Positions 831 to 28,053 of a stretch of DNA of 33,614 nt are shown piece after piece (positions within the stretch are counted from its first letter, which is position 1; every line of letters begins with the position of its first letter). Source of the DNA: a virus. Location: positions 1 to 33,614 of the IMG/VR virus record IMGVR_UViG_3300009705_000059; one strand, given 5' to 3'. The notes under the pieces were generated by a model. That model was not told the origin of the DNA and did no database searches. It saw only the letters and a program-made list of their open reading frames with translations. A program made the translations under genes and the position numbers.

Positions 831-1454
831 TTACTCTCCTCTTATAATCTTGTTAATAATATCTTCTGCTTTACAATAAGTACCACAAGTTCTACCTTGT
901 GTTAGTGGTTGTGATACACCCTCATTGACTGGATGTAAAAACGCACCATGTGTTGATGGGTTTGATACAAAATCAAATGCAATCAATTCAAAGTCTTGTC
1001 CAACTTTCATTACTGGTTGTTTACCATCTGCTTCTTGTACAGTCTCAACTGACCCCATTCCACGAGAACTGATACCTAACTTAATACCATTCTTAAATAA
1101 TTCTCTTAAAATATTTCCACTCGGTGTAGTTAAAATTTCTACTGTCCCCAATAAACTATCACCCTCAAAATGCATTTCAGTAATATTGTGTGATACATTC
1201 TGTAAATTCACTACTGATGAATCTGGATGGTCTAATTCACCAAGTGCTCTTTTCTGTTTAATAAATCCATCATTATAATTCTGTGCTTCTCTTGTTAGAA
1301 TCTCCATTGGATATATTCTTCCATTTTGATTCTTTGCATCTGCTCTCTGTAAAACACCTTTAACTACCAACTTACCATTATTTTCCTTAATGGATTCATT
1401 AATTTGGGTTGTTGATATCTCAAATGGTATGTAATCTACAATTAAACTTCTCAT
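831..1454 (-). CDS. 21: Prohead core protease, T4 gp21-like
   Basis: This is the maturation protease that cuts scaffold, core and capsid proteins inside the prohead. The 207-residue length fits T4 gp21 homologues. Visible family motifs are NGRIYP (residues 44-49), GELDHP (72-77) with the likely catalytic His76, GISSRG (127-132) with the likely catalytic Ser, and FDFVSNPS (160-167), probably holding the third triad residue. An INE site near residues 18-20 fits self-cleavage. An AAGGAT ribosome site precedes the ATG. The gene lies downstream of the portal gene, as in T4, with four core-type genes between. The family call is strong; exact triad assignments are inferred. Confidence 0.93.
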   Translation of the reverse strand: MRSLIVDYIPFEISTTQINESIKENNGKLVVKGVLQRADAKNQNGRIYPMEILTREAQNYNDGFIKQKRALGELDHPDSSVVNLQNVSHNITEMHFEGDSLLGTVEILTTPSGNILRELFKNGIKLGISSRGMGSVETVQEADGKQPVMKVGQDFELIAFDFVSNPSTHGAFLHPVNEGVSQPLTQGRTCGTYCKAEDIINKIIRGE

Positions 1455-2325: not shown

Positions 2326-2335
2326 TGTAGTTTCC
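2322..2335. repeat. 14-bp repeat over a start codon and ribosome site (copy 1)
   Basis: The 14 bases TCATTGTAGTTTCC (plus strand) cover the start codon and Shine-Dalgarno region of the 1456-2325 gene. An identical copy lies at 2745-2758 over the start of the next upstream gene. Confidence 0.5.
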
Positions 2336-2748
2336 TATTCCGCTATTTTGGCAATTCGTTGTGCCACATCTGAAATTTTAAAATTTGGTTTTAATATTAC
2401 ATCCTTAACTCCAAGATTAACTCCCGAAATCTTCGAACCTTGTGGACCTGTAAACCGAATACGAACTGCTTTACCATTAACTTTTACTTCTGCACCTGTA
2501 TGTGCCCATATGGATTTTGTATAGTTTACACTTTTACCGAGTTTTTTTAATTCATTCTCAAGTTCTTTCATTACCTTTAAGTTTTCTTTTTTTATATCTT
2601 TTGTATAAACTTTACTTATTTTAATTTTTTCTTGTTGAAGTTTCCATATTTTATCTTGAAGTTCTTCAATTCTTGGTTCACCATTTTTATATATCTTATC
2701 AATGGTAGATAAATTACTTTCATTAATTAAATTTTTTAAGTTTATCAT
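2335..2748 (-). CDS. Hypothetical core-region protein with CTS-like leader, 137 aa
   Basis: A 137-residue protein of unknown family. The first ten residues, MINLKNLINE, resemble the T4 capsid-targeting leader that ends in a gp21-cleavable hydrophobic-x-E. Residues about 25-75 form a Lys/Glu-rich predicted coiled coil. The C-terminal part (about 80-137) looks like a small beta-rich domain with a VRIRFTGPQG segment. The start overlaps the previous gene's stop in an ATGA arrangement, and a GGGAAA ribosome site lies upstream. Its place between portal and protease suggests an internal head or core protein. Function is not established. Confidence 0.6.
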   Translation of the reverse strand: MINLKNLINESNLSTIDKIYKNGEPRIEELQDKIWKLQQEKIKISKVYTKDIKKENLKVMKELENELKKLGKSVNYTKSIWAHTGAEVKVNGKAVRIRFTGPQGSKISGVNLGVKDVILKPNFKISDVAQRIAKIAE

Positions 2749-6151: not shown

Positions 6152-7723
6152 TTATAAGAGCCATTCTAATGACTCCTTCTCTTTGTTACCAATTTCCATT
6201 TCCCAACTATCGTTTTTATTTTCGTTGGGTGTATAAAGCCCATCCGTATCTAACATACGATTAAGGGATTTCTTAGTTAATTCTACGCCTTCTTGTCGTA
6301 ATCTTAATGCAGTATCACGAACCCATAAACCTATAGCAAAAGACATTACTAAGTCATCATTATATCCTGACATAGCTTCTGCTCGGTTATTGTGATAAAT
6401 AAATGTAAACAATTCATCTATCAATCTGTTTGAACGAACTTGTACTTCTTCGTTCCTAAAATATTCCTCTAACTTTGCAATAATCAAAGGTCGAGTTCTC
6501 ATAGTGGTACTAAATCCAGCCACCATATTCTTTTCTTCACTTCTAAATCGATTTGTCATTTGATGTGCAATATCGATATATTTTAAATCTTTACTTGTAT
6601 AGAATAGATTATCATAATCCCTATCTATTACTTGTTGGATTGTTGCCCAACCAATGTTATTGTTTTCTATAATTAGTAAAGCATCATTATATTCCGTTGA
6701 AATACTCACTAACATATTACCAAAATCTTTTGTACTTAACCTACCTTTATATTCAGCAACTTGTTCTACACTCTCCACATCAATGACATGGAACGCACTA
6801 TAATCTTTTCCATCACCCCTACCAACATCAGCACATACGATATAATCTCTCGTATAGTTTGGTGGTTGCCATATCCACAAGTTACCATCCATCCCTCTTT
6901 TTTCAACGGGGTCTTTACATACATTTTTTTTCATATTCTCCAACAATACACCATCAATTACTGAAGTACCTGAAGTAATAAAATCACAATCACACTCTTG
7001 TGCTGCACCTTGTATTCCTAATAAGGTATCTTGTTCATCTCTCCATTCTTGATGTCTATCTGGATGTACACTCCAATGAAGTTTGATATCACTAAACACT
7101 CCTCTACCTTCTTCTGCATCTACCCACGTTCTATGAAACCAATTACCAACACCATTTGGTGTAGAAAGAGCAATACAACTACCACCAGTTGTCAATGTTT
7201 GTTGTGATGCAGTCCATATATCATCTATCTTATCGATAAATGCTGCTTCGTCCAATATCAATAATGATAATGCTTCGGAACGAGCGGCTTCTGGTCCACT
7301 TGCACTTGCCTTTATTTGTGAACCATTGGTGTATCTAAGGTTCAATTTGTTATCCTCAGTACATCTTTGTTTCAACCATGTAGGTAAGTTTGCATGCATA
7401 ACACGAACCTTCGTGACAAGGTTTTTAGCAGTATCTTGTTTAGTTGCAATCACTAATATATTCTTATCTTGAAAGAATGTCATCATCCACAAAGAGTATC
7501 CAGCAGTTAATGTACTGATACCCAACTGACGAGCTTTTAAAATTACGCTAAACCTATTATCCACAAACTGCTTGACTGTTTCTTGTTGAAAATCATACAA
7601 TGCAAATGGAATTTTCCCTTTGATTGGATGTTGTATCATACAATACTTCATCAAAAAATAGACAGGGTCTTGTGCACATTTAATGTACTCCTGTTTAATC
7701 ACATCTTTTAATTGTTCGGCCAT
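6152..7723 (-). CDS. 17: Large terminase subunit, T4 gp17-like
   Basis: This is the ATP-driven packaging motor and headful nuclease. In the 523-residue product the ATPase domain shows KARQLGIST (63-71), a deviant Walker A in which Lys63 precedes the loop, as in lambda gpA, instead of the GKT lysine of T4 gp17. Walker B is LLILDEAAF (154-162) and the coupling motif is STPNG (187-191). The RNase H-fold nuclease has acidic residues at D299 (ADVGRGDG), E353 (IIENNN) and D456/D457 (YNDDLVMS). The ATG overlaps the preceding gene's stop as TAATG. No obvious small terminase (gp16) is seen, although the small genes upstream are candidates by position. Confidence 0.96.
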   Translation of the reverse strand: MAEQLKDVIKQEYIKCAQDPVYFLMKYCMIQHPIKGKIPFALYDFQQETVKQFVDNRFSVILKARQLGISTLTAGYSLWMMTFFQDKNILVIATKQDTAKNLVTKVRVMHANLPTWLKQRCTEDNKLNLRYTNGSQIKASASGPEAARSEALSLLILDEAAFIDKIDDIWTASQQTLTTGGSCIALSTPNGVGNWFHRTWVDAEEGRGVFSDIKLHWSVHPDRHQEWRDEQDTLLGIQGAAQECDCDFITSGTSVIDGVLLENMKKNVCKDPVEKRGMDGNLWIWQPPNYTRDYIVCADVGRGDGKDYSAFHVIDVESVEQVAEYKGRLSTKDFGNMLVSISTEYNDALLIIENNNIGWATIQQVIDRDYDNLFYTSKDLKYIDIAHQMTNRFRSEEKNMVAGFSTTMRTRPLIIAKLEEYFRNEEVQVRSNRLIDELFTFIYHNNRAEAMSGYNDDLVMSFAIGLWVRDTALRLRQEGVELTKKSLNRMLDTDGLYTPNENKNDSWEMEIGNKEKESLEWLL

Positions 7724-8103
7724 TAGTTTGTTATCTGTCCTGCAAGGTTAACTGAAACTGCCGTAGCACTTACACCATATACAAACCATAACCACTTATT
7801 CTCATGCCACTTAGGTTTCACAAGTTTCACTTTATCTTTATAAAGTTCGTTTGTTTCTTTAAGTAACAGCATCTGTAATTGTCGTTTTTCTATTATTAAA
7901 GAATCCATATATGCATTCTCTTCTAACTTCAATACTACACTTTCTAAATCAGATATAACAATTTGGGATAAACTATCAGCTTTTTCAAACCCTTGTAGTC
8001 TATTTGCCCACTCAATCACATCTGCCTTAGGCAATGTTATGGTTTCTTCAGTTTGACCAAGAAGAACACTAAACAAAAATACTATGTATATAAAATATCT
8101 CAT
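7723..8103 (-). CDS. Exported or membrane protein with N-terminal signal and C-terminal hydrophobic segment
   Basis: A 126-residue protein. Residues 1-16 (Ile/Phe/Leu/Val-rich) form a signal peptide or membrane anchor ending LLGQT. Residues about 40-90 are a predicted coiled coil. A second hydrophobic stretch (about 103-122, WLWFVYGVSATAVSV) could be a transmembrane helix. This N-anchor, coiled coil, C-anchor plan recalls single-gene spanins that fuse inner and outer membranes at lysis, but the lipobox cysteine is missing, so that reading is weak. There is no Shine-Dalgarno site: the 13 bases before the ATG are AT-only apart from one C and one G. The gene ends in a TAATG overlap with the terminase gene. 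Confidence 0.6.
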   Translation of the reverse strand: MRYFIYIVFLFSVLLGQTEETITLPKADVIEWANRLQGFEKADSLSQIVISDLESVVLKLEENAYMDSLIIEKRQLQMLLLKETNELYKDKVKLVKPKWHENKWLWFVYGVSATAVSVNLAGQITN

Positions 8104-8116
8104 ATATATAAATATA

Positions 8117-8398
8117 CTACTTACTAAATTTCTTCAAATATTTTAAGGCTTCATCAACATCTTGTACATCTGATGCTTTTTTAGCTTTTTCTATTTGTTT
8201 CTTAGTATTAGTTACTTTTCGTTTAAGGTTACCAACTTCTTTCTTGTTGACTTTTTTCTTCTTTTCAAGTTTCACTACTTCTTCTTCAAGTTTAGTTACT
8301 TCTTCATTTTTTACTTCTATTGCCTTATCTAACTTTTTGATTTCTTCTTTTTTCTTTCCACCAAAAAATAGATTCATTATCGTTTCAATGATTCCCAT
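8117..8398 (-). CDS. Small coiled-coil protein with N-terminal hydrophobic helix, 93 aa
   Basis: I place the start at the ATG at 8398 because an AAGGAG site lies 6 bases upstream; a longer in-frame version to 8473 would overlap the previous gene by about 90 bases. The 93-residue protein begins with a hydrophobic segment (MGIIETIMNLFFGG) followed by a nearly uninterrupted Lys/Glu heptad coiled coil (about residues 16-75). It could be membrane-peripheral or a core or assembly rod. No family is recognised. It overlaps the preceding gene by 14 bases. Confidence 0.6.
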   Translation of the reverse strand: MGIIETIMNLFFGGKKKEEIKKLDKAIEVKNEEVTKLEEEVVKLEKKKKVNKKEVGNLKRKVTNTKKQIEKAKKASDVQDVDEALKYLKKFSK

Positions 8399-8600
8399 TG
8401 TTATCTCCTTCAGGTAATTTAACTCCACTATCGTAAAGCATTTGTTCAAATGATTTTGGCTGAGCTTCATCATACTCAGTCAAATCCATAAGTCTTTCTA
8501 TAATGCGTTGGTACACTTTTGTTACATTTTCTGTATCATCACTATTAATCTTTTTATGATAATCTGCAGCTACATTTCCCAATTGTGCCACCATACCCAT
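8385..8600 (-). CDS. Small hypothetical protein, about 71 aa (start uncertain)
   Basis: A short helical, acidic protein just upstream of the coiled-coil gene. The start is unclear. The ATG at 8600 lies 4 bases past the previous stop but has only a weak GAG site. The ATG at 8594 has the same site at about 9 bases. An ATG at 8651 has a strong GAGGAGG site 6 bases before it, but that start would sit inside the preceding gene with a 47-base overlap. The acidic region DLTEYDEAQPKSFEQML near the C-terminus looks like an ordered helix. By position (shortly before gene 17) it could be a small-terminase-like factor, but nothing in the sequence shows this. Confidence 0.5.
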   Translation of the reverse strand: MGMVAQLGNVAADYHKKINSDDTENVTKVYQRIIERLMDLTEYDEAQPKSFEQMLYDSGVKLPEGDNNGNH

Positions 8601-8604
8601 TATC

Positions 8605-9186
8605 TCAATTATTAGATTTTCTGGCAGCAGCAATCTCCTTTGATTCCTCATCTATAGCCTCCTCTAATTTATCTATATAATCTTTTGCTTCTTGAACTAT
8701 GGCACCAAATTTTTCTTTACCCATGTCCCATTTTTCACTTTCGAGTTCTACATCTTTAACTCCAACTGAATTAAAAAACTCTGCTTTACCCTCAGTCTGT
8801 TCATATTCTACAAGTGATTGTTTCATATCTCTTACATATGATTTTCTATTCTCCAATTCAAGTGTTCGTGCATAATGCTCAAACTCTCCCGTTAATCGTA
8901 GTTTATTTTCAAACTCAATCTGACAATCAAAACAATGTCCTTTAGTTCTCCAAAACTTAGTATCAAGTTTTTTCTTCATTGTTTTTTTACAAGATGGACA
9001 AAACCAAGGCATTCTCACATCTTTCATTATTCCTGTCATTTTAGTCTCACGAGTTTTACCTTGTAAGTTCTTGTCAGGTTTTCCCTCGTATCCTACTTGT
9101 ACATAATCTTTTTCATATTCTTTACCAGACATCAAATCCTTTAAGGCTTTGTTTTGTCTATCCATATCTTTACTATAATTTGCCAT
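8605..9186 (-). CDS. Zinc-finger-type hypothetical protein, 193 aa
   Basis: A 193-residue protein with a clear four-cysteine treble-clef or zinc-ribbon pattern: WFCPSC at about residues 57-62 and HCFDC at about 84-88. Basic and aromatic residues lie between them, and a long charged helical tail (about 95-190) follows. The start has an AGGAG site at good spacing, 8 bases downstream of the giant gene's stop. Zinc ribbons of this kind bind DNA, RNA or protein. Because it lies just before the terminase region, a role in packaging or late expression is possible, but the family is not one I can name. Confidence 0.65.
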   Translation of the reverse strand: MANYSKDMDRQNKALKDLMSGKEYEKDYVQVGYEGKPDKNLQGKTRETKMTGIMKDVRMPWFCPSCKKTMKKKLDTKFWRTKGHCFDCQIEFENKLRLTGEFEHYARTLELENRKSYVRDMKQSLVEYEQTEGKAEFFNSVGVKDVELESEKWDMGKEKFGAIVQEAKDYIDKLEEAIDEESKEIAAARKSNN

Positions 9187-9194
9187 TATAACTC

Positions 9195-12100
9195 CTATCC
9201 AAATTTTATACTACCAAGTATCTGATTAATTGGAGCAAATGCACCTGTGAACTTATATATGTTTCCTTTATACTTAAACACTATACCCTCACTTGGTACA
9301 ACTGAATCCAACCCACCAATTGCTTGTAGTTTCTCAATTTGTATTTTTAACTTCTTTAACTTTTCTACGTTACCGCCACTCTGTAAATCCTTTAATGCAC
9401 TTAACATTTCTTTACGAATCTTCTGTACTGATTTCTTAGGTGATACAGCAATATATCCTTGAATATTTTTTAATATCTCTGCACCAACTGAAAAGAATAA
9501 TACCTCGAATGGTTTAATATTATCCTTAAAAATTTTCTTATGGTCTTGTTTATCTGTTGATAATATCCAATCCATAAATTTAGGATTGTCTTTATAATCT
9601 TTTTTAATTTCTGCTATCTTATAACTCTTATCAAAAAATGCCCATCTTCTTACTAACTTAATAAACTGATTTGGTTTTAAATTAACCTTAAATTGTTTTG
9701 ATGCGTTAAAAATATACTCTCTCCAATATGCCTCGTGGTATTCACCCAATGTATCTTTATCTTTTAACCCATATTGAGATTGTAGTTTTTTTAATTGTCC
9801 TAAATACTTACTCTTCAATTTATTAAAGTCTTGATGTTTAGGTACAGTCAAAAAGTTTGGTTTCCCAATCTTAAACATCTTTTGTATATGTTGATTCATT
9901 TGTTTAATCATACCTGCTAACATTCTAGCACTATCTTTTGGTTGTCCAATTGGTTTTCCACTCTCATCATACTCTAATGTACCATGAAATACAATTTCTG
10001 CTATATCATAATCTATTACATTTGCAGTTGCTGGATACATAACCTCTAAATTCATCCATTTTTTACCATTACCGAATACTTTATCTTTTTGTTTATCACT
10101 CAAACTACCAATAGATTTTTCTAAATCTGTCATAGCACCTACAAAAGCTTTTTCAATTTCACCTCTACCACTAAACATAGATTTTATTCCACTTGTGGTT
10201 GGTGCAGTTTTACCAAAGTTTTTTAAATGTCCTTTATTACGAGCTGCTCTTAACTTCCCATCAATCCAACTTACCATTAAATTCTGTCCATCAAGTTTCT
10301 CTGTAACACCATCTTCTCTATCTAACTTTCCCCCTATACCATTAATAACTATCTGTTTCAAGTCTGAAAATGTAAGATTATTATCATCGAAAGGATGACT
10401 CATATGTCCGTAGGCTCCACCCATAAGTAATAACTCCTTTGTGTGTTCTGTTATATCAATTCTTTCGTGGAAATCTTTTAGTTTTTTAGTAGGTGCTGGT
10501 TTAGTCGAATTACCCTTACCTGCCGTTGCAGTTCCCATATCATGTGTTGGTGAATCTGCCATCTTATTATGTTTATTATCACCAAAGAACTTTAAAATTT
10601 CCCACCCCATTTTTCCAACAATCTTTCTCATATGTTTTTTATATTTTGGAAATGGGTTACTCACACTATCAGTATTTTTAGTATCTTGGTTTATTGTTCT
10701 ACCATATGTGGTGGTGGATACTCTATCTATTGTAGATGTACTAAAATCAAAACCAGGGTCTTTTGCATTCTTACCAATGATATCATTAAGTACTTCCCAC
10801 CCCATTATTTCTGCGTGTTTAGGGGATACTCGTTTATAATCCGAGAATGAATTAAAGAAATCATACAATCCCTCATCATCAAAAATCTTTGCATCAAAAT
10901 GATTTCCCAATGCACTAACTTCCTTTATTAAATTTTTTACTGAAGATTGATTATAAAATTCAAATAACTTTTTAAATTTATTAGTCATCATTTGGTACAC
11001 ACCTTTATCATAATACCCAAATAACTTTTTAAATACTTTTGGCCTTGTCTTATCATCGAGTTTGGGACTACCCAAAATATTTCTCATTGTAGTACCCGAA
11101 ACCTCTTTACCACCTACACTCATACTAATATGTGGGGCAACTAAATAATAACCATGTTCCCCATGTCCTTTTATATTTCGTATATTCTTTTTGTAATCTT
11201 GAAAATAAGTTAAACCACCATCGGTTTTCTTTCCACCCTTTATTCTACCTGCATCTTTCTTACCGAAAATATAAACTACAGCAGTAGTTTCTGGGTCAAA
11301 CTTACCAAGTAACGTCTTAGCAACTAATGGTATTCTCTCGTTAATAATTTTATTCTTAGGTACACCCATTTTAACCATATGTCGAACTTTCTCTTTATAG
11401 TTCATTGGATGCCTTGGTGGTTGCTTTATATTAGATGTAGTGATATATGCATCATCTACTTGTTTCTCTAACCACTTAAATGTTTTTAGGTGATGTGGGC
11501 CAAATGGTTGAAATCTACCACCATAAATACCTATTACTTTTTTAATCTTATTCTCGTTCAAATTGATTGCAACATCCCCATCTTCTATGATAGAATATAC
11601 GACATTTTTCATATAAGAGTCAAGTGTTTTCTCATTTAGTTTTCCATCACTTATACCTCTACCACCTTTATCAAATGTGGTGAACTTCTGTAACTTACCA
11701 AATGCTTTATCTTTCCTCATCTTGTCTTGTTTGTGCCATCTCATCTTATCAAATACTTTCATTCTCATATGATTCTTTACTATGTAATGGATATCATCAA
11801 CATCACCACCCAATGATTGTATCCACTTCTTGTGTTTCAATACAAGTTCGGCGGAAACTTTCTCGTGTCCATAATGTGTCCAAAAACCTTTCTTTGGATG
11901 TATCTTTGCGGTTGAATCTTTTCCTATATCGTGAAACAATGCTGATAAAGCAAAATCTATATCACCAGTTTTTAATGCTCTATTAGTTACAGCAATGGTA
12001 TGTTTTAAAACATTACCCTCTGGATGAGCATCTCTTCGTTGGTCAAAGTTTTTAAGGTTCATAACTCGTTTTTTTAAATCACTTGGAATAGCGTTATAAA

Positions 12101-13721
12101 TATCTCTGAATGTTTTAGGTTTCTTACGAACTGCTATTTCATCTACCTTTTTATACCCACTCATTCTATCAGTTTTGTTTTTATTAATACCTTTTCTACT
12201 TGGTGATGGAATTGCAAACTCATTTTTCATTTTAAGTTTCTTTCTCAACTTATCAATTTCCTTACTAATTTTTTTTTGAGCTGGACTGCCTGGCATCATT
12301 TTCATGGCCTGGGTATAAAGTTTATACAACTTTGCCTTATCGGTACTTTCACCTAAAAACTTTTTCTTTTCCATATCTTTCATCTTATCACCAATAGCTT
12401 TTCCTTTTAGCCCAACTATATCACTACCCTTTACACTTAACTTAAATGTAGATAGTTTTTTTAAATCTTTACCAACTAACGTACCATACTCTTGAATTTG
12501 ATTTGATGTCAATGTGGTTTTCAGTTGTGCTTTTTTAACTATATAAATATTTTCTGGTTTAAAGTTATTCAGATAAACTAAGAACTGAATGTTATTACTT
12601 TCCTTAGCACTATACTTTAATGAATTTAAAGTTTTACCTAACTTAGTTACATCATTCTTTCTTAAAATTGTTGAAATAAATAAAATATAATCCTTGACAT
12701 TTGGATAAGGTTTTGTTATATTTAACTTGGGGAATATTTGTTTTGTAAAACTAAACTTATCACATGCTTCCATAAATTGTTTTGATGATTTTCCCTTTTG
12801 TAATCCCTTTACAAACTCTTCTTTGATTCTCTCACCACTCACACCATTTAATTTTGGATTATCTAATAATGCTTGTTCAGTATCTTTATCCATTTTCCCA
12901 CCAATAACAGCTTGAAATCTCAATGCTCGTAACTTTCTTAATGGGTCCTCATCAAATCTTCTTTTTGGATTACCGACAGTCCTTACTAATTTATTTTTTA
13001 AATCTTTTAATCCACCTGTTAAATCAACTACTTCATTTCTTCCAATATCATAAAACATAGCATTGATAGTTAAATCTCTTCGTTTAACATCCCCTTGTAT
13101 ATCAGAAAAATCTACTGCATCTGGTCTACGACCTTTACCAATATCTTTTCTGAATGTAGCAATTTCGTGTCCACCCACAATCACTACTCCAAATGATTTA
13201 CCAACCTCGACTGTTTTAAATCCACCTTGTTTTGCAATTGCTAATACTTCGTCTGGTTTTGCATCAGTTGCTAAATCAAAATCTTTTGGTTTCTTACCAA
13301 GTATTGCATCTCTTACTGCACCACCCACAAGGTATAATTCTTTTTTATTTTTCTTAAATAATCTATACAACCCTTTAATATCACCTGGAACATTAATCTC
13401 TATTTTGTTTTCGTTTACACTTTCTTTTTTATTAGCTCTAATACCTTTAAACTCTGCACCTCGCATGTCGGGGTCTGGGTTGGTAGAACCTTTATCGGTA
13501 GTTTTTATCGGTAATAATTTTTTACTATCTTGTTTTGCAAGTCTAAATTTTAACGCAGGTCTTTTATTGATAAGTAAATCACCCTTTTCATTATAGGTAA
13601 TTGACTTAACAACTACCTTCTTGTTCTTAAATCTACCCATCAAGACAACATCACCAACTTTAACTGGTAGTTCTATTTCTTTGATAAGTGGTTTAGTTAA
13701 CCATTCTGTAAGTTTATTCAT
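9195..13721 (-). CDS. Giant RNA-repair-type fusion: CCA-adding NTase + HD hydrolase + NMNAT-like + polynucleotide ligase
   Basis: A 1508-residue multi-enzyme protein. I start at the ATG at 13721, 4 bases after the preceding stop; a longer frame would overlap that gene. The order is: a small beta-rich domain (20-65); a class II poly(A)/CCA nucleotidyltransferase head (115-310) with GGAVRD (133-138), catalytic DFD (147-149), RRD (214-216) and FDEDPLR (256-262), plus its tail to about 458; an HD domain (550-690) with H574, HD 597-598 and H651; an NMNAT/cytidylyltransferase domain (725-915) with GGRFQPFGPHH and SGTTMR (875-880); and a ligase domain (1095-1508) with EKLDG (lysine 1142), RNKG (1161-1164), LEVMYP (1225-1230), SEGIVFK (1477-1483) and YKFTG. 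All motifs look intact. It probably repairs RNA or tRNA ends. Acidic-site leaders at the domain joints suggest gp21 processing. Confidence 0.88.
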   Translation of the reverse strand: MNKLTEWLTKPLIKEIELPVKVGDVVLMGRFKNKKVVVKSITYNEKGDLLINKRPALKFRLAKQDSKKLLPIKTTDKGSTNPDPDMRGAEFKGIRANKKESVNENKIEINVPGDIKGLYRLFKKNKKELYLVGGAVRDAILGKKPKDFDLATDAKPDEVLAIAKQGGFKTVEVGKSFGVVIVGGHEIATFRKDIGKGRRPDAVDFSDIQGDVKRRDLTINAMFYDIGRNEVVDLTGGLKDLKNKLVRTVGNPKRRFDEDPLRKLRALRFQAVIGGKMDKDTEQALLDNPKLNGVSGERIKEEFVKGLQKGKSSKQFMEACDKFSFTKQIFPKLNITKPYPNVKDYILFISTILRKNDVTKLGKTLNSLKYSAKESNNIQFLVYLNNFKPENIYIVKKAQLKTTLTSNQIQEYGTLVGKDLKKLSTFKLSVKGSDIVGLKGKAIGDKMKDMEKKKFLGESTDKAKLYKLYTQAMKMMPGSPAQKKISKEIDKLRKKLKMKNEFAIPSPSRKGINKNKTDRMSGYKKVDEIAVRKKPKTFRDIYNAIPSDLKKRVMNLKNFDQRRDAHPEGNVLKHTIAVTNRALKTGDIDFALSALFHDIGKDSTAKIHPKKGFWTHYGHEKVSAELVLKHKKWIQSLGGDVDDIHYIVKNHMRMKVFDKMRWHKQDKMRKDKAFGKLQKFTTFDKGGRGISDGKLNEKTLDSYMKNVVYSIIEDGDVAINLNENKIKKVIGIYGGRFQPFGPHHLKTFKWLEKQVDDAYITTSNIKQPPRHPMNYKEKVRHMVKMGVPKNKIINERIPLVAKTLLGKFDPETTAVVYIFGKKDAGRIKGGKKTDGGLTYFQDYKKNIRNIKGHGEHGYYLVAPHISMSVGGKEVSGTTMRNILGSPKLDDKTRPKVFKKLFGYYDKGVYQMMTNKFKKLFEFYNQSSVKNLIKEVSALGNHFDAKIFDDEGLYDFFNSFSDYKRVSPKHAEIMGWEVLNDIIGKNAKDPGFDFSTSTIDRVSTTTYGRTINQDTKNTDSVSNPFPKYKKHMRKIVGKMGWEILKFFGDNKHNKMADSPTHDMGTATAGKGNSTKPAPTKKLKDFHERIDITEHTKELLLMGGAYGHMSHPFDDNNLTFSDLKQIVINGIGGKLDREDGVTEKLDGQNLMVSWIDGKLRAARNKGHLKNFGKTAPTTSGIKSMFSGRGEIEKAFVGAMTDLEKSIGSLSDKQKDKVFGNGKKWMNLEVMYPATANVIDYDIAEIVFHGTLEYDESGKPIGQPKDSARMLAGMIKQMNQHIQKMFKIGKPNFLTVPKHQDFNKLKSKYLGQLKKLQSQYGLKDKDTLGEYHEAYWREYIFNASKQFKVNLKPNQFIKLVRRWAFFDKSYKIAEIKKDYKDNPKFMDWILSTDKQDHKKIFKDNIKPFEVLFFSVGAEILKNIQGYIAVSPKKSVQKIRKEMLSALKDLQSGGNVEKLKKLKIQIEKLQAIGGLDSVVPSEGIVFKYKGNIYKFTGAFAPINQILGSIKFG

Positions 13722-13725
13722 TTTT

Positions 13726-14259
13726 TTACCATTTACGACACGACCAATATCTTGCTTTATGTTTTGGGCCTGGATTATCACAATTATGTCTTGCTCTAAA
13801 AGATTTACGAGCTGATGGATTATCTTTACGAATCCTCATTGTTCCACCCTTAGCATCTCCACCTTGACCAAAGTTAACCTTAACTACATTACCCTTATCA
13901 TTTTTTACATATACTTTGAATTTTTTAGCATCACCTTGCATTGGTTTACCAAGTTTAACTTTTCTACCTTGATATTCTGCTTCTTTTAAATCTTTATCTG
14001 TATCAACTTCTATTGTGTATCCACAACTTTCATTTTGATTTTCCCAATAAATATCAAAAACTTCTTTTACACAATTAGGAACTTTCTTATCACCCTTATC
14101 TTTCATGCCAAGTTGTTTATATCCTACCCAACAAGTTCCTCTGGCTTCATTTACTGCTTCATTGGATATTAATTTTACCATATTCTTTTCCCTTGATGAT
14201 AATCTATCTTTTTTCTTTCCGATTTCTCTCGGTTCATCTATGTGAAATGTTGCCATCAT
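13726..14259 (-). CDS. Phage protein with conserved Cys/Arg-rich C-terminal domain, 177 aa
   Basis: The N-terminal half (about residues 30-75) has the pattern GTCWVGYKQLGMKDKGDKKVPNC. The C-terminal half (about 95-177) carries a conserved block ending RKSFRARHNCDNPGPK and then KARYWSCRKW. I remember both blocks from hypothetical proteins of T4-like marine phages and large DNA viruses; I do not know their function. Cysteines and basic residues suggest metal or nucleic-acid binding. LISNEA and VNEA segments near residues 29-38 match gp21 cleavage patterns. The ATG at 14259 overlaps the previous stop (ATGA), and the next codon is also ATG with better spacing to GGAG, so the real start may be 14256. 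Confidence 0.7.
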   Translation of the reverse strand: MMATFHIDEPREIGKKKDRLSSREKNMVKLISNEAVNEARGTCWVGYKQLGMKDKGDKKVPNCVKEVFDIYWENQNESCGYTIEVDTDKDLKEAEYQGRKVKLGKPMQGDAKKFKVYVKNDKGNVVKVNFGQGGDAKGGTMRIRKDNPSARKSFRARHNCDNPGPKHKARYWSCRKW

Positions 14260-14612
14260 ATTTCTCCGTAATCAAACCCATCCGTTGAATAATCTTTATC
14301 ACCATATTTATCCCAACTGCCTACCGCAGCTTGAAATCCCTCATACTTTTCACCAGTATTTATAATTCTTTTAATTACCTGTACTTGTAATGTTTTCTTA
14401 TCTCTCTTCCCACCATATGGGTCATCTGCTTTTGGAAAATCTAATTGTGCGTATCCACCCTTATCATACCAAGGCTCTGGTTTACTACTATCAACACCCA
14501 ATATTCTTGATTGTCCTGCAGGTGAAAACCCTGTATCTGGTTCACCAGCATCTGCAGAATGGTGATTACCATTAGCACTTATTTCTTTTACTATATCCAT
14601 TAACTTAATCAT
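14256..14612 (-). CDS. Hypothetical protein with CTS-like leader, 118 aa
   Basis: A 118-residue, Gly/Asp/Lys-rich protein of unknown family. Its first ten residues, MIKLMDIVKE, closely match the leader of the kinase gene two genes upstream (MIKLMDLLNE) and the T4-type capsid-targeting leader. The next residues (ISANGNHHSADAG) resemble an internal segment of the 1508-residue protein (about 935-945, VSALGNHFDAK), suggesting a shared targeting or processing module. The rest looks largely disordered with aromatic patches. It may be a packaged internal head protein. This is inferred from the leader and context. Confidence 0.62.
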   Translation of the reverse strand: MIKLMDIVKEISANGNHHSADAGEPDTGFSPAGQSRILGVDSSKPEPWYDKGGYAQLDFPKADDPYGGKRDKKTLQVQVIKRIINTGEKYEGFQAAVGSWDKYGDKDYSTDGFDYGEI

Positions 14613-15419: not shown

Positions 15420-16160
15420 TTATTTTCTCCTAAGTAATTTCTGTTTACCAACCCATAGCTTTCCGAGTTTGTTTTTGATGGGTTGCCCCACAAATTTTCT
15501 AACAACTTTAGTAACCAATGGAACAAATTTTGCCTCCGCTTCTTCATCGGATAGATGTTTTGAATTATCAACTATCACGAAATTGTTTTTAAATAATGAT
15601 TGAAAAGAACCAAGATTCTGTTGTACATCTTCCCAAGATTTTTTTAATAATTTTGGTGGTAAAATTCTATCTCGTTCTTGATTTCTTTGTTGTGCAACCT
15701 CTAATGATGTGTTCACCATTACCATATATGTATCATATCCATCTGCTTCTAACTCAGATTTCATTGTTTGTATCTTACCAAAATCGTGTCCTGTGCCATC
15801 AATAATCATACCCAATTTTCCTTGTCGATATAATCTCATTCTCTCTTTAGTAAGTGATTTTCCAAATTTTCGTAGTCCACTTGAATCTGGTAAACTATCA
15901 TCTGTTAAATTTTTAAATACTTCATCAGGCATTTTATCTAAATCAGTACCAAAGTGGAATTTCTTTAATAAAAATTTCAATTCTTTATCTGAATTAACCA
16001 TCTTCATACCACTCATACTGATATTGAACTTGTCTGGAATACCAAATATCTGTTTAGCTGCATAAGTTTTACCACTTCCAGGTCCACCTGCAAGGAATAC
16101 TGCTTTGAATATACCTTTATCTTGTACACCCTCGTTTAATAAATCCATTAATTTAATCAT
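15420..16160 (-). CDS. P-loop kinase (polynucleotide kinase/zeta-toxin-like) with CTS-like leader
   Basis: A 246-residue P-loop protein. The Walker A motif is GGPGSGKT (residues 25-32); IIDGTGHD (about 116-123) supplies an acidic loop, and the ERDR segment (about 153-156) looks like a lid arginine region, as in AAA_33/zeta-toxin/Pnk-type kinases. It may phosphorylate RNA or nucleotide ends; zeta-type sugar-nucleotide kinase activity is the alternative. The start is the ATG at 16160, with GGAG 6 bases upstream, better than the in-frame TTG at 16172. The first ten residues, MIKLMDLLNE, resemble the T4 capsid-targeting leader cut by gp21, so the kinase may be packaged. From memory, T4-like marine phages carry similar FKAVFLAGGPGSGK proteins. 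Confidence 0.8.
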   Translation of the reverse strand: MIKLMDLLNEGVQDKGIFKAVFLAGGPGSGKTYAAKQIFGIPDKFNISMSGMKMVNSDKELKFLLKKFHFGTDLDKMPDEVFKNLTDDSLPDSSGLRKFGKSLTKERMRLYRQGKLGMIIDGTGHDFGKIQTMKSELEADGYDTYMVMVNTSLEVAQQRNQERDRILPPKLLKKSWEDVQQNLGSFQSLFKNNFVIVDNSKHLSDEEAEAKFVPLVTKVVRKFVGQPIKNKLGKLWVGKQKLLRRK

Positions 16161-16595: not shown

Positions 16596-16693
16596 TTATA
16601 AATAAACGGGTCGCGTTTTTTTATTTCTTTTAACTTTTTACGAAACTTAATCTCAGTAATGAGTTTGTTCCATAGTCGTTTAAAAAATCTCAT
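16592..16693 (-). CDS. Small basic protein, 33 aa
   Basis: A 33-residue ORF too short for routine calling. It starts MRFFKRLWNKLITEI and ends KKRDPFIYK, is strongly basic and amphipathic, and has a clear AAGGAG site (16699-16704) 5 bases before the ATG. Its first 14 bases overlap the end of the SGNH gene, and its stop overlaps the next start in an ATGA arrangement. I recall similar tiny proteins ending R-K-R-D-P-F-I-Y in T4-like cyanophages, which supports it. It also means the TATAAATA octamer at 16597-16604 is coding. Function is unknown. Confidence 0.72.
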   Translation of the reverse strand: MRFFKRLWNKLITEIKFRKKLKEIKKRDPFIYK

Positions 16694-17471
16694 AATTACT
16701 CCTTATGTATTGATTTAAATATTTACCCCATTCAATATGTGATGTATCAGTTGGATGATTTGTGCGGAAATAATCATCATTATTACGCCAATCTGTATTA
16801 AACTCATTTTCTACACAGAGTCTAAAATGTGGTTTAAAGTCTTTATTATAAATATAATCTAAATCAATATACTTGAAAAAAGAATCTTCTCGAATCTCCT
16901 CATCAAAATCATCAAAACAATTAAATATTAAATATGGTATATTTCTTACTTTTAAAAAATTTTGAAGATTGATTATATTTAAACAAAGTCTATGTACTAA
17001 TGATTCTTTTGCAAAATCTAAATATTCGTCTGGTGATACTCGTGCATCTATCCATTTACCTTTTAATTTCTTTTCATTCTGTGTAATACTTGTATCATTC
17101 CAAGTTTCATATCTAAACATAGATGTTAATCCTATCACAACAAAAAAATCTTTCTTACCGAGTGATTCTAAATACTCAATAGAACCAATTGTAGTTCTAA
17201 ATATCCTATCATTACTACAACCCAATCTACCAGCATTCCAAGTTTCGACACCAAGTTTTTCTCCCAAAACCTTTGGCCAAACTGGACTATCATAAAATTT
17301 ATATAGTATGTTCTTTTCACCTTTTGGTGGGTTGGATTCTGTTGGTGAAAATTTATTACCGAAATTTGGAACTATATCATACCAATCTAAGGTTTTTGTT
17401 GCTTCCCAATTTAAATCTTGTGAAGGGTAATCACCTTGTGTCCAACTATCTCCGCTTGTTAATAATATCAT
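16680..17471 (-). CDS. SGNH/GDSL-type hydrolase-like protein, 263 aa
   Basis: The 263-residue protein starts LLTSGDSWTQGDYP (Ser9 in the GDS block I). WNAGRLGCSNDRIFR (about 78-92) supplies block II Gly, and HPTDTSHIEWG near the C-terminus supplies a D-x-x-H block V. SGNH enzymes remove acetyl or acyl groups from sugars and lipids. In this operon a carbohydrate esterase acting on a surface glycan is the likeliest role. The start has a GAGG site and an ATGA overlap with the glycosyltransferase gene before it. This is one of three diverged SGNH-like genes in the window. Confidence 0.78.
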   Translation of the reverse strand: MILLTSGDSWTQGDYPSQDLNWEATKTLDWYDIVPNFGNKFSPTESNPPKGEKNILYKFYDSPVWPKVLGEKLGVETWNAGRLGCSNDRIFRTTIGSIEYLESLGKKDFFVVIGLTSMFRYETWNDTSITQNEKKLKGKWIDARVSPDEYLDFAKESLVHRLCLNIINLQNFLKVRNIPYLIFNCFDDFDEEIREDSFFKYIDLDYIYNKDFKPHFRLCVENEFNTDWRNNDDYFRTNHPTDTSHIEWGKYLNQYIRSNYEIF

Positions 17472-18295
17472 CTCTTTTCCTCAAGTATTCTGTATAAACC
17501 TGTTCCACCTTTTCTGTGAATTAAAAATGGTTTATCGTTAAATGTATGTAAGTTTCCAACCTTTCTATTGTAACCATAACTTTCTTCAAATTCTGGTGAA
17601 TCGGTTTCCTTATTTTCATAAAATCCAGGCAAGTGTAAATACTTTAATTCTTTATCTTTACAAGTAATGGTTGCCAAGTGATTGTTATCTCCCCTAATCC
17701 AATCTACCCAAATGTTGTGTTTAGAGTAAAAATCACCTCTACATAAAAACCAATAACAATCTGCAAAATATTCATACTTTTCCAACTCTTTAAACTTAAC
17801 TGGTTTTTTATCAATTGTGATATATTCGTAGTTTTCTTTTTCCAAAAATTCTATTTGTTCTTCTATAATGTTATCAAGATATAATGTATCATTATGTTGT
17901 ATTACTAAGTAATCACCACTTGATTTTATTATTCCGTGATTGTATGCCATAGCTAAACTTTTAGCATGATTAAAATCAGTATCCTCTCTGTAATCTTCTA
18001 TATTAATTTTATCCAACCACTCAGGTCGTTTCCCATCAAGATATCCAACTGATTGATATGATGGTATCACTTTAACTAATGGATTTTTGTGTGTAGGAAA
18101 ATTACCCTCATTGTCCATAATTAATATTTCGTGTGGATTTAACTTTAATATTTGGTCAATTAAATTTAATGTATGTTTTAATAGTTCTTGATTAATTTTC
18201 TCATCAACATTATAATGTTTAAAATCATTTCGATTCATTGTATTAGTATCTGCCCAAACTAATATATAACTTACTGATTTATATTCTGGTATCAT
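17468..18295 (-). CDS. Glycosyltransferase-like protein (GT-A fold), 275 aa
   Basis: The 275-residue product looks like a GT2-type glycosyltransferase. A long N-terminal section places residues on a grid, then NHAKSLAMAYNHGIIKSSGDYLVIQHNDT (read as two motifs, about 110-123 and 124-138) matches the GT-A pattern, with HND in the position of the DxD metal motif. EESYGYNR and the C-terminal HRKGGTGLYR are other notable stretches. Aspartates 136-137 are the candidate metal ligands. It overlaps its neighbours by ATGA on both sides, directly between NeuB-like and SGNH-like genes, so it likely transfers a sugar in the same pathway. The fold call is moderate. Confidence 0.7.
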   Translation of the reverse strand: MIPEYKSVSYILVWADTNTMNRNDFKHYNVDEKINQELLKHTLNLIDQILKLNPHEILIMDNEGNFPTHKNPLVKVIPSYQSVGYLDGKRPEWLDKINIEDYREDTDFNHAKSLAMAYNHGIIKSSGDYLVIQHNDTLYLDNIIEEQIEFLEKENYEYITIDKKPVKFKELEKYEYFADCYWFLCRGDFYSKHNIWVDWIRGDNNHLATITCKDKELKYLHLPGFYENKETDSPEFEESYGYNRKVGNLHTFNDKPFLIHRKGGTGLYRILEEKR

Positions 18296-19104
18296 TCGAA
18301 TCTACCTTGATAATATTCGTGATTGAATCTTTGTTCCTCATTAAATCCATTTAATGCTAAATACTGACCATCTTTTGTATAATTACTAAATGTTTTTAAC
18401 TCTTGTAATTCTTCTGGTGTAACTGAAACCTTCCCATCTCGTGTTTCATCTTTATTCAATATAGTGAAGTGTTTTTCTAACATATCAATACCTTGAAAGA
18501 TTGCCTGTTTACTTGGTAATAAATTATCTGAATGGTCACTAAACCCTATCTTATCGTGTAGAGTTTTTAAATGTTCTATTGATGATAAGTTTAATTTTTC
18601 AAATGGTGTTGGGTATAAACAAACACAATACAATATTGTAAAATCAACTCCTTGTAAATTTTTAATACACTTTTCAATATCGTGTAAGTGTAAACTTGAA
18701 GTGGAAAATACTAAGTGTTTAAAATTAAATTTATCTAATTTTTTTCCAAAATCAAATGCTCTCATTGAATACCCACTTAACTTTAAATAATCATATCCTA
18801 AACTATTATAATAATCATAATGATTAGGACTAAATATTGTTGTCATTGGTATAATGTTGTTAACCTTTGCCGTATGTATAAACTCTTTTTCATCATCATA
18901 AGATAATTCTAATGATTTAAATCTTTGATATTCATCCGAGTATTTTCTAAATGATTCATACTCTTCTCTTTTAGTTAGTGAATCTGCTTTGATTGATTGA
19001 ATTTTAACTATATCTGCTCCACTATACTTTGCTTTCACCACCATATCCTTTACAATATTCATATCACCATTATGGTTTTGACATAATTCAGCTATTAATT
19101 TCAT
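18292..19104 (-). CDS. neuB: N-acetylneuraminate (nonulosonate) synthase, NeuB family
   Basis: This enzyme condenses phosphoenolpyruvate with an N-acyl hexose to make a nonulosonic acid such as sialic, legionaminic or pseudaminic acid. Motifs in order: IAELCQNHNG (4-13), VKIQS (33-37), LYCVCLYPTP (158-167), IGFSDHS (186-192) and EKHFT (210-214), with conserved acidic and basic residues after. Its 270 residues are about 70 shorter than typical NeuB (about 340), because the C-terminal antifreeze-like (SAF) domain is missing. That domain covers the active site of the partner subunit in bacterial enzymes, so the loss may alter specificity. It overlaps the glycosyltransferase by 4 bases and the methyltransferase-like gene by 17. 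Confidence 0.9.
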   Translation of the reverse strand: MKLIAELCQNHNGDMNIVKDMVVKAKYSGADIVKIQSIKADSLTKREEYESFRKYSDEYQRFKSLELSYDDEKEFIHTAKVNNIIPMTTIFSPNHYDYYNSLGYDYLKLSGYSMRAFDFGKKLDKFNFKHLVFSTSSLHLHDIEKCIKNLQGVDFTILYCVCLYPTPFEKLNLSSIEHLKTLHDKIGFSDHSDNLLPSKQAIFQGIDMLEKHFTILNKDETRDGKVSVTPEELQELKTFSNYTKDGQYLALNGFNEEQRFNHEYYQGRFE

Positions 19105-19648
19105 TCTTTTTATCTCCTACATCTGTTTTGTAATTACATGAAAAAAATTTATCTGGGCGTTCTGGATTCTTTTTATAAAAATCTCTTGTTCCCGTTCTAC
19201 CATCAATAAAATATGGAATTTCATAACCTAAGTGATTAACGATATCCATTAAATTAAATGTGGTGTTTGGGTCTGATTCAAAATCTCTTAAATTAGGTCC
19301 ATCTAAAATAACAAAATCAACTTCTTTAATATCTTCTATTGGATGAATATACCTAACTCCAGTAGTGTTAAATTCTGTGGATTCTGCATTGTCCACACGT
19401 TTTATATTGTTGTATTTATTCCAACCCTTTTCTATATGGTCATTATACCAATATGAATTACACTCATAACCAACTACTTTACCCCCATAATCTAAAAAGT
19501 TTACTAATTCAGTTAAGTTATAAGTACTTTTACCACCACCATACTCAACTATAAATTTAGGTTTATTTTTAACTATGTGATTATATGCACTTAAATATTT
19601 ACCATCCTTTGCAACTAATCTTGATTTATAATACTCTAAATTCTTCAT
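19088..19648 (-). CDS. SAM-dependent methyltransferase-like protein, 186 aa
   Basis: The 186-residue protein has a class I Rossmann-type pattern. KFIVEYGGGKSTYNL (about 31-45) gives the glycine-rich SAM loop; GGKVVGYECNSYW (about 55-67) gives the acidic end of the second strand; VDFVILDGPN (about 110-119) is the fourth-strand motif. A hexose or nonulosonate O- or N-methyltransferase is plausible from the surrounding sugar genes. It has no recognised substrate domain, and some proteins of this shape are not enzymes. ATGA overlap with the dehydrogenase and a 17-base overlap with NeuB tie it into the operon. Confidence 0.66.
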   Translation of the reverse strand: MKNLEYYKSRLVAKDGKYLSAYNHIVKNKPKFIVEYGGGKSTYNLTELVNFLDYGGKVVGYECNSYWYNDHIEKGWNKYNNIKRVDNAESTEFNTTGVRYIHPIEDIKEVDFVILDGPNLRDFESDPNTTFNLMDIVNHLGYEIPYFIDGRTGTRDFYKKNPERPDKFFSCNYKTDVGDKKNEINS

Positions 19649-20472
19649 ATTTTCTCCAATACTCTTTGATATGCTTTTTCTTGTGCTTCTATTGATGTTC
19701 CAGCTATATGTGGTGTTATCAATACTTTATGATTTGATTCCAATATAGATTGTTCATCTACATATTCTGTCTGTAGAACATCTGTAGCATAACCACATAT
19801 CCTATCCTTTAATAAAAGTTTATTTATATCTTCTTCATTTACTATTTCACCACGAGATGTATTAACTAAATAAATATCTTTTCTAAATTGTTGCATATAG
19901 TTTTTATTTATCATTTCATATGAAGATGGATTTAAATCTACATGCAATGAAACAATATCAGATTCAAAAAATAACTTTTCTTTATCCCCATAATCTTTAT
20001 CAACTACTATAACTTTCTTAAATAGATTCTGGCATAAATACTCAACCATCTTACCTAATCTACCATCACCTATAATACCTAAAGTTTTATCGTGCAATTC
20101 AATAGATGGTTTTGTATGTCTAACTATTGATAAAATTAAATGTAAAGTATGTTCTGCTGTAGACCATATTGATTCAAGAATTTCATCATTCTTAATAGAT
20201 ATAATCGGTACTGAATCAACATCGATATGATTTAAACCTGTAGATGGTGAAACAATACATTGTATGTTTGAATCTTTAATTAACTCCTCATCAATAACAA
20301 AGTTTTGAAAATTTGGTGCACAAAACAATATATCAAATTTTCCAATGTGTAATTTAACATCGTCATATGTAGGTTCAAGCAATTCTAAAAATTCATATGC
20401 TTTAAACACCTCACTATAAAAATCTCTTAAATGGTTTATTGGTGTTATAAATAATATTCTTGGTTTATTCAT
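19645..20472 (-). CDS. D-isomer 2-hydroxyacid dehydrogenase family protein
   Basis: The NAD-binding domain shows GIIGDGRLG (132-140), an Asp-containing second strand VIVVDKD (about 154-160), VNTSRGEIVNEEDI (about 203-216) with Arg207 as the expected substrate-binding residue, and ITPHIAG (252-258) with the catalytic His255. At 275 residues it is shorter than typical members (310 or more), mainly through a compact N-terminal domain. Its substrate could be a keto-sugar acid, phosphoglycerate-like compound or an acyl donor for the glycan, and cannot be told. ATGA overlaps on both sides place it in the same operon as the aminotransferase and NeuB-like genes. Confidence 0.85.
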   Translation of the reverse strand: MNKPRILFITPINHLRDFYSEVFKAYEFLELLEPTYDDVKLHIGKFDILFCAPNFQNFVIDEELIKDSNIQCIVSPSTGLNHIDVDSVPIISIKNDEILESIWSTAEHTLHLILSIVRHTKPSIELHDKTLGIIGDGRLGKMVEYLCQNLFKKVIVVDKDYGDKEKLFFESDIVSLHVDLNPSSYEMINKNYMQQFRKDIYLVNTSRGEIVNEEDINKLLLKDRICGYATDVLQTEYVDEQSILESNHKVLITPHIAGTSIEAQEKAYQRVLEKI

Positions 20473-28041: not shown

Positions 28042-28053
28042 TAATAATAAATA

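Follow-up and report, generated by a model that had tools for sequence, protein, structure and literature searches.

A candidate capsid-borne RNA-repair polyprotein of marine T4-like phages

The fusion gene and its domains

The window analysed here is a virus record of IMG/VR (IMGVR_UViG_3300009705_000059; 33,614 bases). In the company of T4-like head genes (TerL, portal and prohead protease), it carries a single gene that fuses CCA-adding, HD, NMNAT-like and ligase domains and that may encode the precursor of a capsid-borne polyprotein. The open reading frame (ORF) lies on the minus strand, as do the parts written below with two dots, and runs from an ATG at 13721 to a stop at 9195–9197, giving 1508 codons (9195..13721); an alternative GTG start at 13781 would overlap the gene at 13726–14259. 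A preliminary description of this DNA had named the same frame, with no strand, and had placed it in a phage head module, and both statements match what was found. The frame is also continuous: one relative (L004) is 100% identical in the overlap and a different contig (L005, 90% identity) repeats the full domain order, so that an assembly artefact or frameshift join was rejected. In another relative, L025, the frame is broken, with residues 1–529 and 867–1508 in two ORFs.

Following a short leader, residues 16–66 (13524..13676) form a conserved N-terminal domain (GDVVLMGRFKNKKVVVKSI..) that is a separate ORF of about 95 amino acids in some relatives. The class II CCA/poly(A) nucleotidyltransferase occupies residues 113–458 (12348..13385). 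It is identified by PolyA_pol (129–247, E 1e-30) and PolyA_pol_RNAbd (276–333), both exceeding the Pfam cut-off, by a PHROG match to 'tRNA nucleotidyltransferase' (127–507, 2e-67), and by residues D147, D149, R214, R215, D216, E258, D259 and R262, which are invariant among 14 distinct sequences. The curated equivalog cut-off that separates CCA-adding from poly(A) enzymes was not reached (best 172.6 bits vs 290). The HD hydrolase domain spans residues 560–690 (11652..12044), with a Pfam HD match at 571–656 (1e-7) that exceeds the cut-off and with H574, H597, D598, H619 and H651 invariant among 12 distinct sequences. An HD domain next to an NMNAT domain recalls YqeK-NadD, in which the HD part is an Ap4A hydrolase. 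This interpretation was set aside as the less likely one, because the HD part finds its nearest solved relatives (0.006) in 'Poly A polymerase' entries of tRNA nucleotidyltransferases.

The CCA-adding and HD domains are clear, while the NMNAT/cytidylyltransferase-like domain (residues 727–920, 10962..11543) is borderline by sequence and clear by fold. CTP_transf_like (732–796, 9e-4) scored 19.8 bits, below the Pfam cut-off of 21, and the region fell far under the NMNAT equivalog cut-offs; in the relative L036, CTP_transf_like passes with 39.4 bits. The predicted fold is that of NadD, NadM and PPAT (Foldseek E about 1e-5 to 1e-4, probability 1), a match that does not single out NMN as the substrate. 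The usual (H/T)xGH motif of NMNAT reads GPHH in the window, retaining the second H, and NMNAT activity is therefore uncertain. Next comes a segment delimited by comparison with relatives and a motif scan (residues 934–1092, 10446..10922), which comprises a candidate cut site LIKE(934), a domain here called F, and a second site, IDITE(1092). In many of the relatives with a split ligase, domain F and ligase motif I together make up an ORF of their own (249 aa).

The ligase region consists of an N part, recognized by alignment (residues 1101–1157, 10251..10421; motif I EKLDGQN, catalytic lysine K1142), and a C part, recognized by alignment and modeling (residues 1158–1508, 9198..10250; R1161, E1226, E1478-G1479, K1490, T1492). 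Pfam RNA_ligase remained below its cut-off (E 0.087, 13.4 bits vs 27). Identification of the ligase by sequence alone was abandoned since a PDB profile search gave weak, spurious-looking matches (ribosomal eS6, E 0.003). Residues K1142, D1144, G1145, N1147, R1161, E1226, E1478, G1479, K1490 and T1492, which we take to represent motifs I, Ia, III, IV and V, are invariant in 32 of 32 aligned ligases. A model of residues 1085–1508 built from 32 sequences (pLDDT 85.6) was compared with the PDB by Foldseek. The top entries were T4 Rnl1, archaeal RNA ligases and fungal tRNA ligase (E 0.004–0.01), and the top 20 were RNA or tRNA ligases except for one putative DNA ligase (Aquifex). As modeled, the ligase seems nearest to RNA ligases, although its sequence scores below the Pfam cut-off. 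The chain ends shortly past motif V and leaves no room for an OB domain.

The four domain assignments of the preliminary description (CCA, HD, NMNAT-like and ligase) are upheld by Pfam and PHROG and by structure comparisons of the two weak ones. Its phrase "intact motif sets" is too strong for the non-canonical GPHH of the NMNAT-like domain.

Exchange of modules and a split ligase

Relatives were collected by a scan of viral contigs (65 loci), by a second scan with the ligase alignment, which found at least 560 relatives in IMG/VR and from which the best 80 of 560 were kept, and by a scan of genome contigs (6 loci). The window itself is L001 in this set; L081 and L015 share one contig, as do L082 and L042. 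The architecture counts refer to 144 ORFs with a ligase C part and were not reduced to distinct versions, whereas the cut-site contexts were. As 79 of the 144 begin at a contig end, their N-terminal modules may be missing.

The whole order of the window occurs in two of the 144 ORFs, namely the window and L005. Five further ORFs carry CCA-HD-NMNAT-ligase with the N-terminal domain undetected, and four of these are cut by a contig end. When an N-terminal domain is present, the most frequent orders are N-domain-NMNAT-ligase (20) and N-domain-kinase-NMNAT-ligase (14). In 27 loci a P-loop kinase forms one chain with NMNAT and ligase, and in 22 it is a separate neighbor. Among 36 fusion proteins searched with Pfam, 20 matched CTP_transf_like, 17 AAA_33, 16 Zeta_toxin, 7 PolyA_pol and 2 HD; no peptidase family appeared among these matches (E <= 0.001), and large stretches were without assignment. 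Few modules are as constant as NMNAT. Several exchangeable domains are found within one phage protein, as in the polyvalent proteins.

Relatives also occur in other phages. In LR756508, a part that resembles ParB by eye precedes NMNAT, F and ligase. The cultured Microcystis phage Mel-JY01, on which the literature search found no paper, encodes NMNAT and ligase upstream of TerL and the prohead protease, with the sequence IIAE↓GGLGGHM (the arrow marks a candidate cut). Among phage records, the terminases closest to that of the window belong to Mel-JY01 (54.8%) and Flavobacterium phage immuto (53.7%). As a separate observation, Flavobacterium phage immuto_2-6A (L186), a culturable relative of the block, encodes upstream of its terminase a 907-aa protein annotated as NMNAT (NadR) (7132–9855). 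By eye, it has nucleotidyltransferase-like and metallopeptidase-like (HEMIHH) parts, and a tag-like start, MRLLELLRE, lies nearby.

Exchange can also be seen within the fusion gene. When window 9198–13721 is compared with L005:6001–10494, residues 1–690 are almost identical (proportion of synonymous differences, pS, 0–0.01), whereas residues 727–1508 have diverged (pS 0.38–0.53). This jump places a recombination joint in the linker 691–726 and suggests recent recombination within one gene, at a module border.

In 16 of the 140 loci that have both ligase parts, motif I and the remainder of the ligase are encoded by different ORFs; in the other 124 they share one ORF. The split loci are L063, L034, L045, L052–L055, L057–L062, L064, L065 and L159, the last with a C part truncated where the contig stops. 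Since L057, L058 and L060–L065 are near-identical, the 16 loci represent 9 distinct versions. In L043 and L044, which were not counted as split, a C part stands without an N part before the contig end, with TITE a few residues earlier. The N part ends directly past the strand LMISWR (LMIGWR in L045), and in the other ORF the ligase picks up again at (G)KL.AARNKG or a similar sequence, which follows LIKE, LLSE, LITE or LLTE. In the ligase model, the split point falls in the turn between strands 62–69 and 72–76, a hairpin between motifs I and Ia. In each of the 16 loci the motif I part follows downstream of the C part, as in L063, where the RNA-ligase-like protein occupies two order-reversed ORFs (11001–11747 and 7560–9287). 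With this order, neither cis splicing nor a frameshift could join the halves, and an intron or frameshift was rejected on this ground, which covers cis joining and not trans-splicing. No Rfam match reached the gathering score in the window, L063, L052, L034 or L045. The split loci are most simply read as encoding a putative two-chain ligase.

These observations bear on the proposal of the preliminary description that the fusion is a complete machine for RNA/tRNA end repair. A single multifunctional enzyme that stays intact, is produced in the infected cell and repairs tRNA as a channelled machine would agree with the presence of all parts in a single frame and with the conserved catalytic residues, and RNA repair is a well described theme in phages (PMC7824862). 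On the other side, relatives swap, lose and unfuse modules, the whole order is confined to 2 of 144 ligase ORFs (one being the window), the ligase itself is cut internally in 16 of 140 loci, and (L/I)-x-E motifs stand at many module borders. Because of the exchange of modules, "one machine" is probably wrong, and an intact enzyme of this kind seems quite unlikely. The RNA end-repair theme of the same proposal fared better, since it is strengthened by the P-loop kinase, a separate gene in the window that 27 loci join to the same NMNAT-ligase protein. The fusion may also, as that description suggested, counter host nucleases that cleave tRNA.

Targeting tags, cut sites and selection

In T4, the first 10 residues of internal protein IPIII are enough for targeting; residues 4 and 7 serve targeting and residues 8 and 10 processing, which a D in position 10 prevents, and the protease gp21 cleaves after L/I-X-E (PMC9026906). 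The window encodes a Peptidase_S77 prohead protease of the gp21 family (831..1454; Pfam 8e-26, exceeding the cut-off), which is proposed to cut the fusion. As read from NC_000866, T4 IPII and IPIII both start with MKTYQEFIAE. A strict decamer built on the T4 positions (hydrophobic at 4, 7 and 8, E at 10) matched 3 of 56 T4 genes tested, namely ipII, ipIII and gene 24, the last annotated as gp21-cleaved; ipI was missed. Applied to the window and to four contigs related to it, the decamer matched 3/40, 6/67, 4/80, 9/73 and 4/108 ORFs; the genes of these tag scans were rough longest-ORF calls and not curated. Shuffle controls gave means of 0.20–0.32 and maxima of 2–3 per contig. Matches cluster around TerL: of the 201 ORFs at most 20 kb away from it, 25 were hit, against 1 of 167 elsewhere (Fisher p 2e-6, with the genes of related contigs not being independent).

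The three matches in the window are the P-loop kinase gene (15420..16160), starting MIKLMDLLNE↓GVQDKG, and two small genes, one of 118 aa (14256..14612; MIKLMDIVKE↓) and one of 137 aa between portal and protease (2335..2748; MINLKNLINE↓). For the fusion, the proposed capsid-targeting sequence is MNKLTEWLTKPLIKE (residues 1–15, 13677..13721), a longer variant of the decamer that ends in I-K-E at 13–15, and relatives have (L/I)-x-E similarly placed. Of the 28 distinct starts listed for modules that are separate genes, 7 fit the strict decamer: those of six of the ten kinases, for example MIKLMDLLNE↓ and MIKLKDLLFE↓, and that of the HD gene, MIRLMDILGE↓. The other four kinases have 9-residue tag variants, and separate CCA-HD (3), NMNAT (5) and ligase-N (9) genes have longer leaders with (L/I)xE, such as MIKLRTLLPLNE↓Y for CCA-HD and MDKLTRELIRDLLPE for NMNAT. 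In the 462-kb phage LR756500, a stand-alone ligase starts with MKFLKSYEEFLNE, like MKTYQEFIAE of T4, and its neighbors start similarly.

One more tagged protein was observed in L063 (5063–5974, about 300 aa, tag MIKLKQLLTE↓). It has a conserved 'STFTR..GRGIQ' by eye, may by eye be ADP-ribosyltransferase-like, and in L041 forms part of the polyprotein (insert about 7411–8700). Neither copy had a PHROG match, and the L063 copy had no PDB match.

The window kinase matches Zeta_toxin (3e-8) and AAA_33 (4e-7), and its best solved relative is L-seryl-tRNA kinase (0.0038). These matches raise the alternative of a packaged polyvalent effector for NAD or nucleotide signalling or host takeover, in which a Zeta-like kinase would act on sugar nucleotides, the NMNAT would restore NAD, and the CCA and ligase parts would modify host RNA. 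Among the fusions, the kinase matches Zeta_toxin as well as AAA_33 (16/36 and 17/36), NMNAT is one of the most constant modules, and both virion-embedded polyvalent effectors and phage NAD salvage have been described (PMC9503650 and PMC5512222). The combination of ligase, kinase, CCA and HD best fits RNA-end repair, and the nearest folds of the ligase are mostly RNA and tRNA ligases; a signalling or takeover effector is thus considered unlikely, if less so than the single intact enzyme.

The window has (L/I)-x-E in linkers at 6, 15, 697, 713, 723 and 1092, three of which, KLNE(697), SIIE(713) and NLNE(723), fall in the linker 697–723 (11553..11633). It also has the motif at 301, 411, 458, 795, 921, 934, 1242, 1327 and 1371, within the domain bounds that were set here, and 458, 921 and 934 sit at domain ends. 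From the window alone this evidence is weak; the placement across relatives is stronger. The motif stands exactly before ligase GGAYGH in 58 of 89 distinct contexts, and at most 14 residues before NMNAT in 19 of 27 (shuffle mean 4.3, maximum 10). Of the 32 aligned ligases, 18 carry the site before GGAYGH, and any other tested position is occupied in at most 7. The Gp23 capsid gene was found in 10 of the 18 related records searched, and in related contigs the major capsid protein has LIDE↓(A/S)S where T4 gp23 has FLTE↓AE, which we take to be its cut site.

Selection on the fusion is mostly purifying. The ratio of nonsynonymous to synonymous differences (pN/pS) is 0.015 and 0.04 for HD (vs L003 and L009), and 0.03–0.07 for the ligase N part and 0.17–0.20 for the C part (vs L003, L005 and L012). 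The HD and link2 rows of L012, which has no HD, are a misalignment and were excluded. In seven pairs of split halves, the N-part ORFs have values of 0.08–0.27 and the C-part ORFs 0.15–0.28. These data were set against the possibility that the protein is core or scaffold material, with enzyme folds reused as bulk in the prohead and catalysis irrelevant. The head-gene setting, the cleavage motifs and the degenerate NMNAT motif would suit such a role. The invariant catalytic residues of the ligase (32/32), the low ratios for HD, and purifying selection on both halves of the split ligase make it very improbable.

Proposed route and comparison with known systems

From the domains and their conserved catalytic residues, the swapping of modules, the tag and cleavage motifs with their placement, the family of the protease, and purifying selection, we infer that the window protein is packaged, cut and ejected and that its substrate is RNA. 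The N-terminal capsid-targeting sequence would bring the chain into the prohead core, and the S77 prohead protease would cleave past (L/I)-x-E in the linkers during head maturation. This would release, roughly, the N-domain with CCA (16–458), HD (459–697), NMNAT (724–934), F (935–1092) and ligase (1093–1508). The pieces would remain in the head and then enter the host with the DNA, like the T4 internal proteins and Alt. There, before phage gene expression, cleaved RNA and above all tRNA could be mended by the CCA enzyme, the HD phosphoesterase and the RNA ligase, together with the P-loop kinase that has a tag of its own. The NMNAT part may restore NAD or provide another adenylyl product.

That a tagged polyprotein is packaged in the prohead, cut, and used for RNA repair is, as a joint reading, favored with modest confidence; packaging alone is rated higher, and tRNA as the target lower. 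A wider proposal, that marine T4-like phages hold a capsid RNA-repair kit, is more tentative and falls somewhat short of an even chance. According to this proposal, the prohead protease would divide one tagged polyprotein into kinase, CCA, HD, NMNAT and ligase, and these would be ejected with the DNA to mend RNA damage by host nucleases from the start of infection. In some lineages, the ligase would be assembled in the head from two precursors that are split between motifs I and Ia and are each freed by an (L/I)-x-E cut.

Several findings weigh against these readings. Regarding delivery, the fusion N-terminus fails the strict decamer (L4, W7 and L8 are present, but E is at 15 and not at 10), and in G005 one match near TerL, in a NeuB-like gene, looks like chance, while the lone far match (92.7 kb) looks like a true tag. 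In the window, the density of the cut motif is higher in linkers (6 in 252 residues) than in domains (9 in 1256, by the bounds set here) to a mild degree only, at least six in-domain sites would need shielding by folding, linkers 67–112 and 459–559 have no strict (L/I)xE, and GGAYGH is immediately preceded by LLLM, which lacks E. Before an internal N-terminal domain, the motif was found in 2 of 5 cases, which is not above chance (shuffle mean 0.8, maximum 3). Regarding function, the ligase model had no PDB match at E <= 0.001 by Foldseek (best 4e-3). VIA gave Z-scores of 8.8–8.4 for Naegleria RNA ligase, T4 Rnl1 and Trl1, barely higher than the best Z of 7–8 that VIA warns is common without kinship; the DNA ligase AsfvLIG (8.1) ties by VIA's own rule, and other DNA ligases reach at most 7.1. 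Against L009, the most distant full relative, pN/pS rises to 0.46 for the ligase N part and 0.45 for the C part. The Pfam matches of the kinase, Zeta_toxin/AAA_33, do not point specifically to a polynucleotide kinase, and no tRNA genes, which could have been a sign of tRNA warfare, were found in the window or the four related contigs.

Evidence on virions comes from work by others on cyanophages. In the three that were checked (S-PM2, S-SZBM1 and Melnitz), a KWDG ligase-like protein is paired with an NMNAT-like one, being fused in S-PM2d138, adjacent in S-SZBM1 and two genes apart in Melnitz. The link to the window rests on the BFVD model of the S-PM2 protein, which matches the window ligase model (Foldseek E 1.8e-4); a profile comparison of the two ligases was weak (probability 0.9%) and counts against the link. 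Of 50,697 phage records, 519 contain a match to the C-terminal 390 residues of the S-PM2 protein (ligase end and NMNAT). In the older S-PM2 record NC_006820 the ligase-NMNAT gene is broken in two, and in LN828717 it is one frame of 591 aa. S-SZBM1_140, a cytidylyltransferase (NMNAT-like) protein of a cultured cyanophage, starts MRFRQFIIE↓AV. It is among 30 proteins identified by mass spectrometry in CsCl-purified virions, with 2 peptides, and is the one virion protein compared with the present family, via S-PM2 (PMC9146016). The partner ligase, S-SZBM1_141, has no clear tag and is absent from those 30, and both facts weigh against the proposed route. NMNAT-like ORF154 of S-CREM2 was found with 3 peptides in virions, for which its authors raise CsCl carry-over as a possibility (PMC10665884), and an NMNAT was reported in virions of S-SCSM1, where that of S-CBWM1 is cited (PMC9602691).

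Other genes of the window were described mostly by eye. The 177-aa gene at 13726..14259 has a C-terminal module that resembles the C-terminus of the Melnitz NMNAT protein. A 193-aa gene at 8605–9186 has two CxxC pairs, and its by-eye counterpart adjoins the ligase gene in split loci (L063:9557–10150). From 16680 to 33614 there is a long series of small genes that resemble surface-sugar synthesis genes, including NeuB-like (18295–19104), nucleotidyltransferase (26296–27018 and 28859–29527), aminotransferase (21868–22920) and radical SAM (23815–24747) genes. The four tested against PHROG (16680–17471, 17468–18295, 18292–19104 and 19088–19648) gave no match.

Should the proposed route be correct, repair could start ahead of all phage gene expression, a point that matters for the survival of phages faced with fast anticodon nucleases. 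It would be unusual for a capsid protease to cut a viral polyprotein in the head of a DNA phage, and likewise for a two-piece ligase to be assembled there. The family is large, with its 560 or more ligase relatives in IMG/VR, and the tag plus (L/I)xE would become a sequence rule that predicts capsid cargo in uncultured marine phages. The recurrent 'NMNAT-like' proteins in cyanophage virions could be explained as well.

Compared with known systems, the cyanophage virion proteins share the pairing of an NMNAT-like with a KxDG ligase-like protein and the presence of NMNAT in virions. They differ in gene neighborhood and in the weak sequence relation of their ligase to that of the window; in the available parts of the papers, their authors discuss NAD levels or the cell wall and mention neither the ligase partner nor targeting tags. 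Polyvalent proteins are likewise large and modular with exchangeable domains, and are thought to enter with the DNA and to be processed into units; they differ in that they are said to be processed by a metallopeptidase domain of their own, whereas the S77 protease of the phage is proposed here, and their authors never found 2H domains associated with RNA ligases (PMC5512222, as available). Jumbo-phage repair sets contain an RNA ligase, an end-healing kinase or phosphoesterase (HD-like in some) and a CCA-adding enzyme, as counterparts of the putative ligase, end-healing and CCA-adding modules here, and they differ in that neither packaging nor a single-chain kit is described in the available part of that work (PMC7824862). 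Virion-embedded polyvalent proteins and phage RNA-repair sets have already been described (PMC5512222, PMC9503650, PMC7824862); a literature search whose coverage left out most subscription papers found no capsid-targeted RNA-repair polyprotein cut by a prohead protease.

T4 itself offers another parallel. Its internal head proteins (IPI, IPII, IPIII and Alt) share with the present family a T4-type head block, an S77 protease and a short N-terminal (L/I)xE tag, and the IPII/IPIII tag MKTYQEFIAE and the marine MIKLKDLLxE follow one pattern at positions 4, 7, 8 and 10. The T4 cargo differs in consisting of single small proteins and one ADP-ribosyltransferase, whereas here it would be RNA-end enzymes, often in one chain. 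T4-type internal proteins are a delivery route, and phage RNA repair, of which T4 Pnkp/Rnl1 is a set, is a defence against tRNA-cutting host systems. While T4-style internal proteins are already known, what appears to be new, judging from the sequences, is an RNA-repair kit as their cargo.

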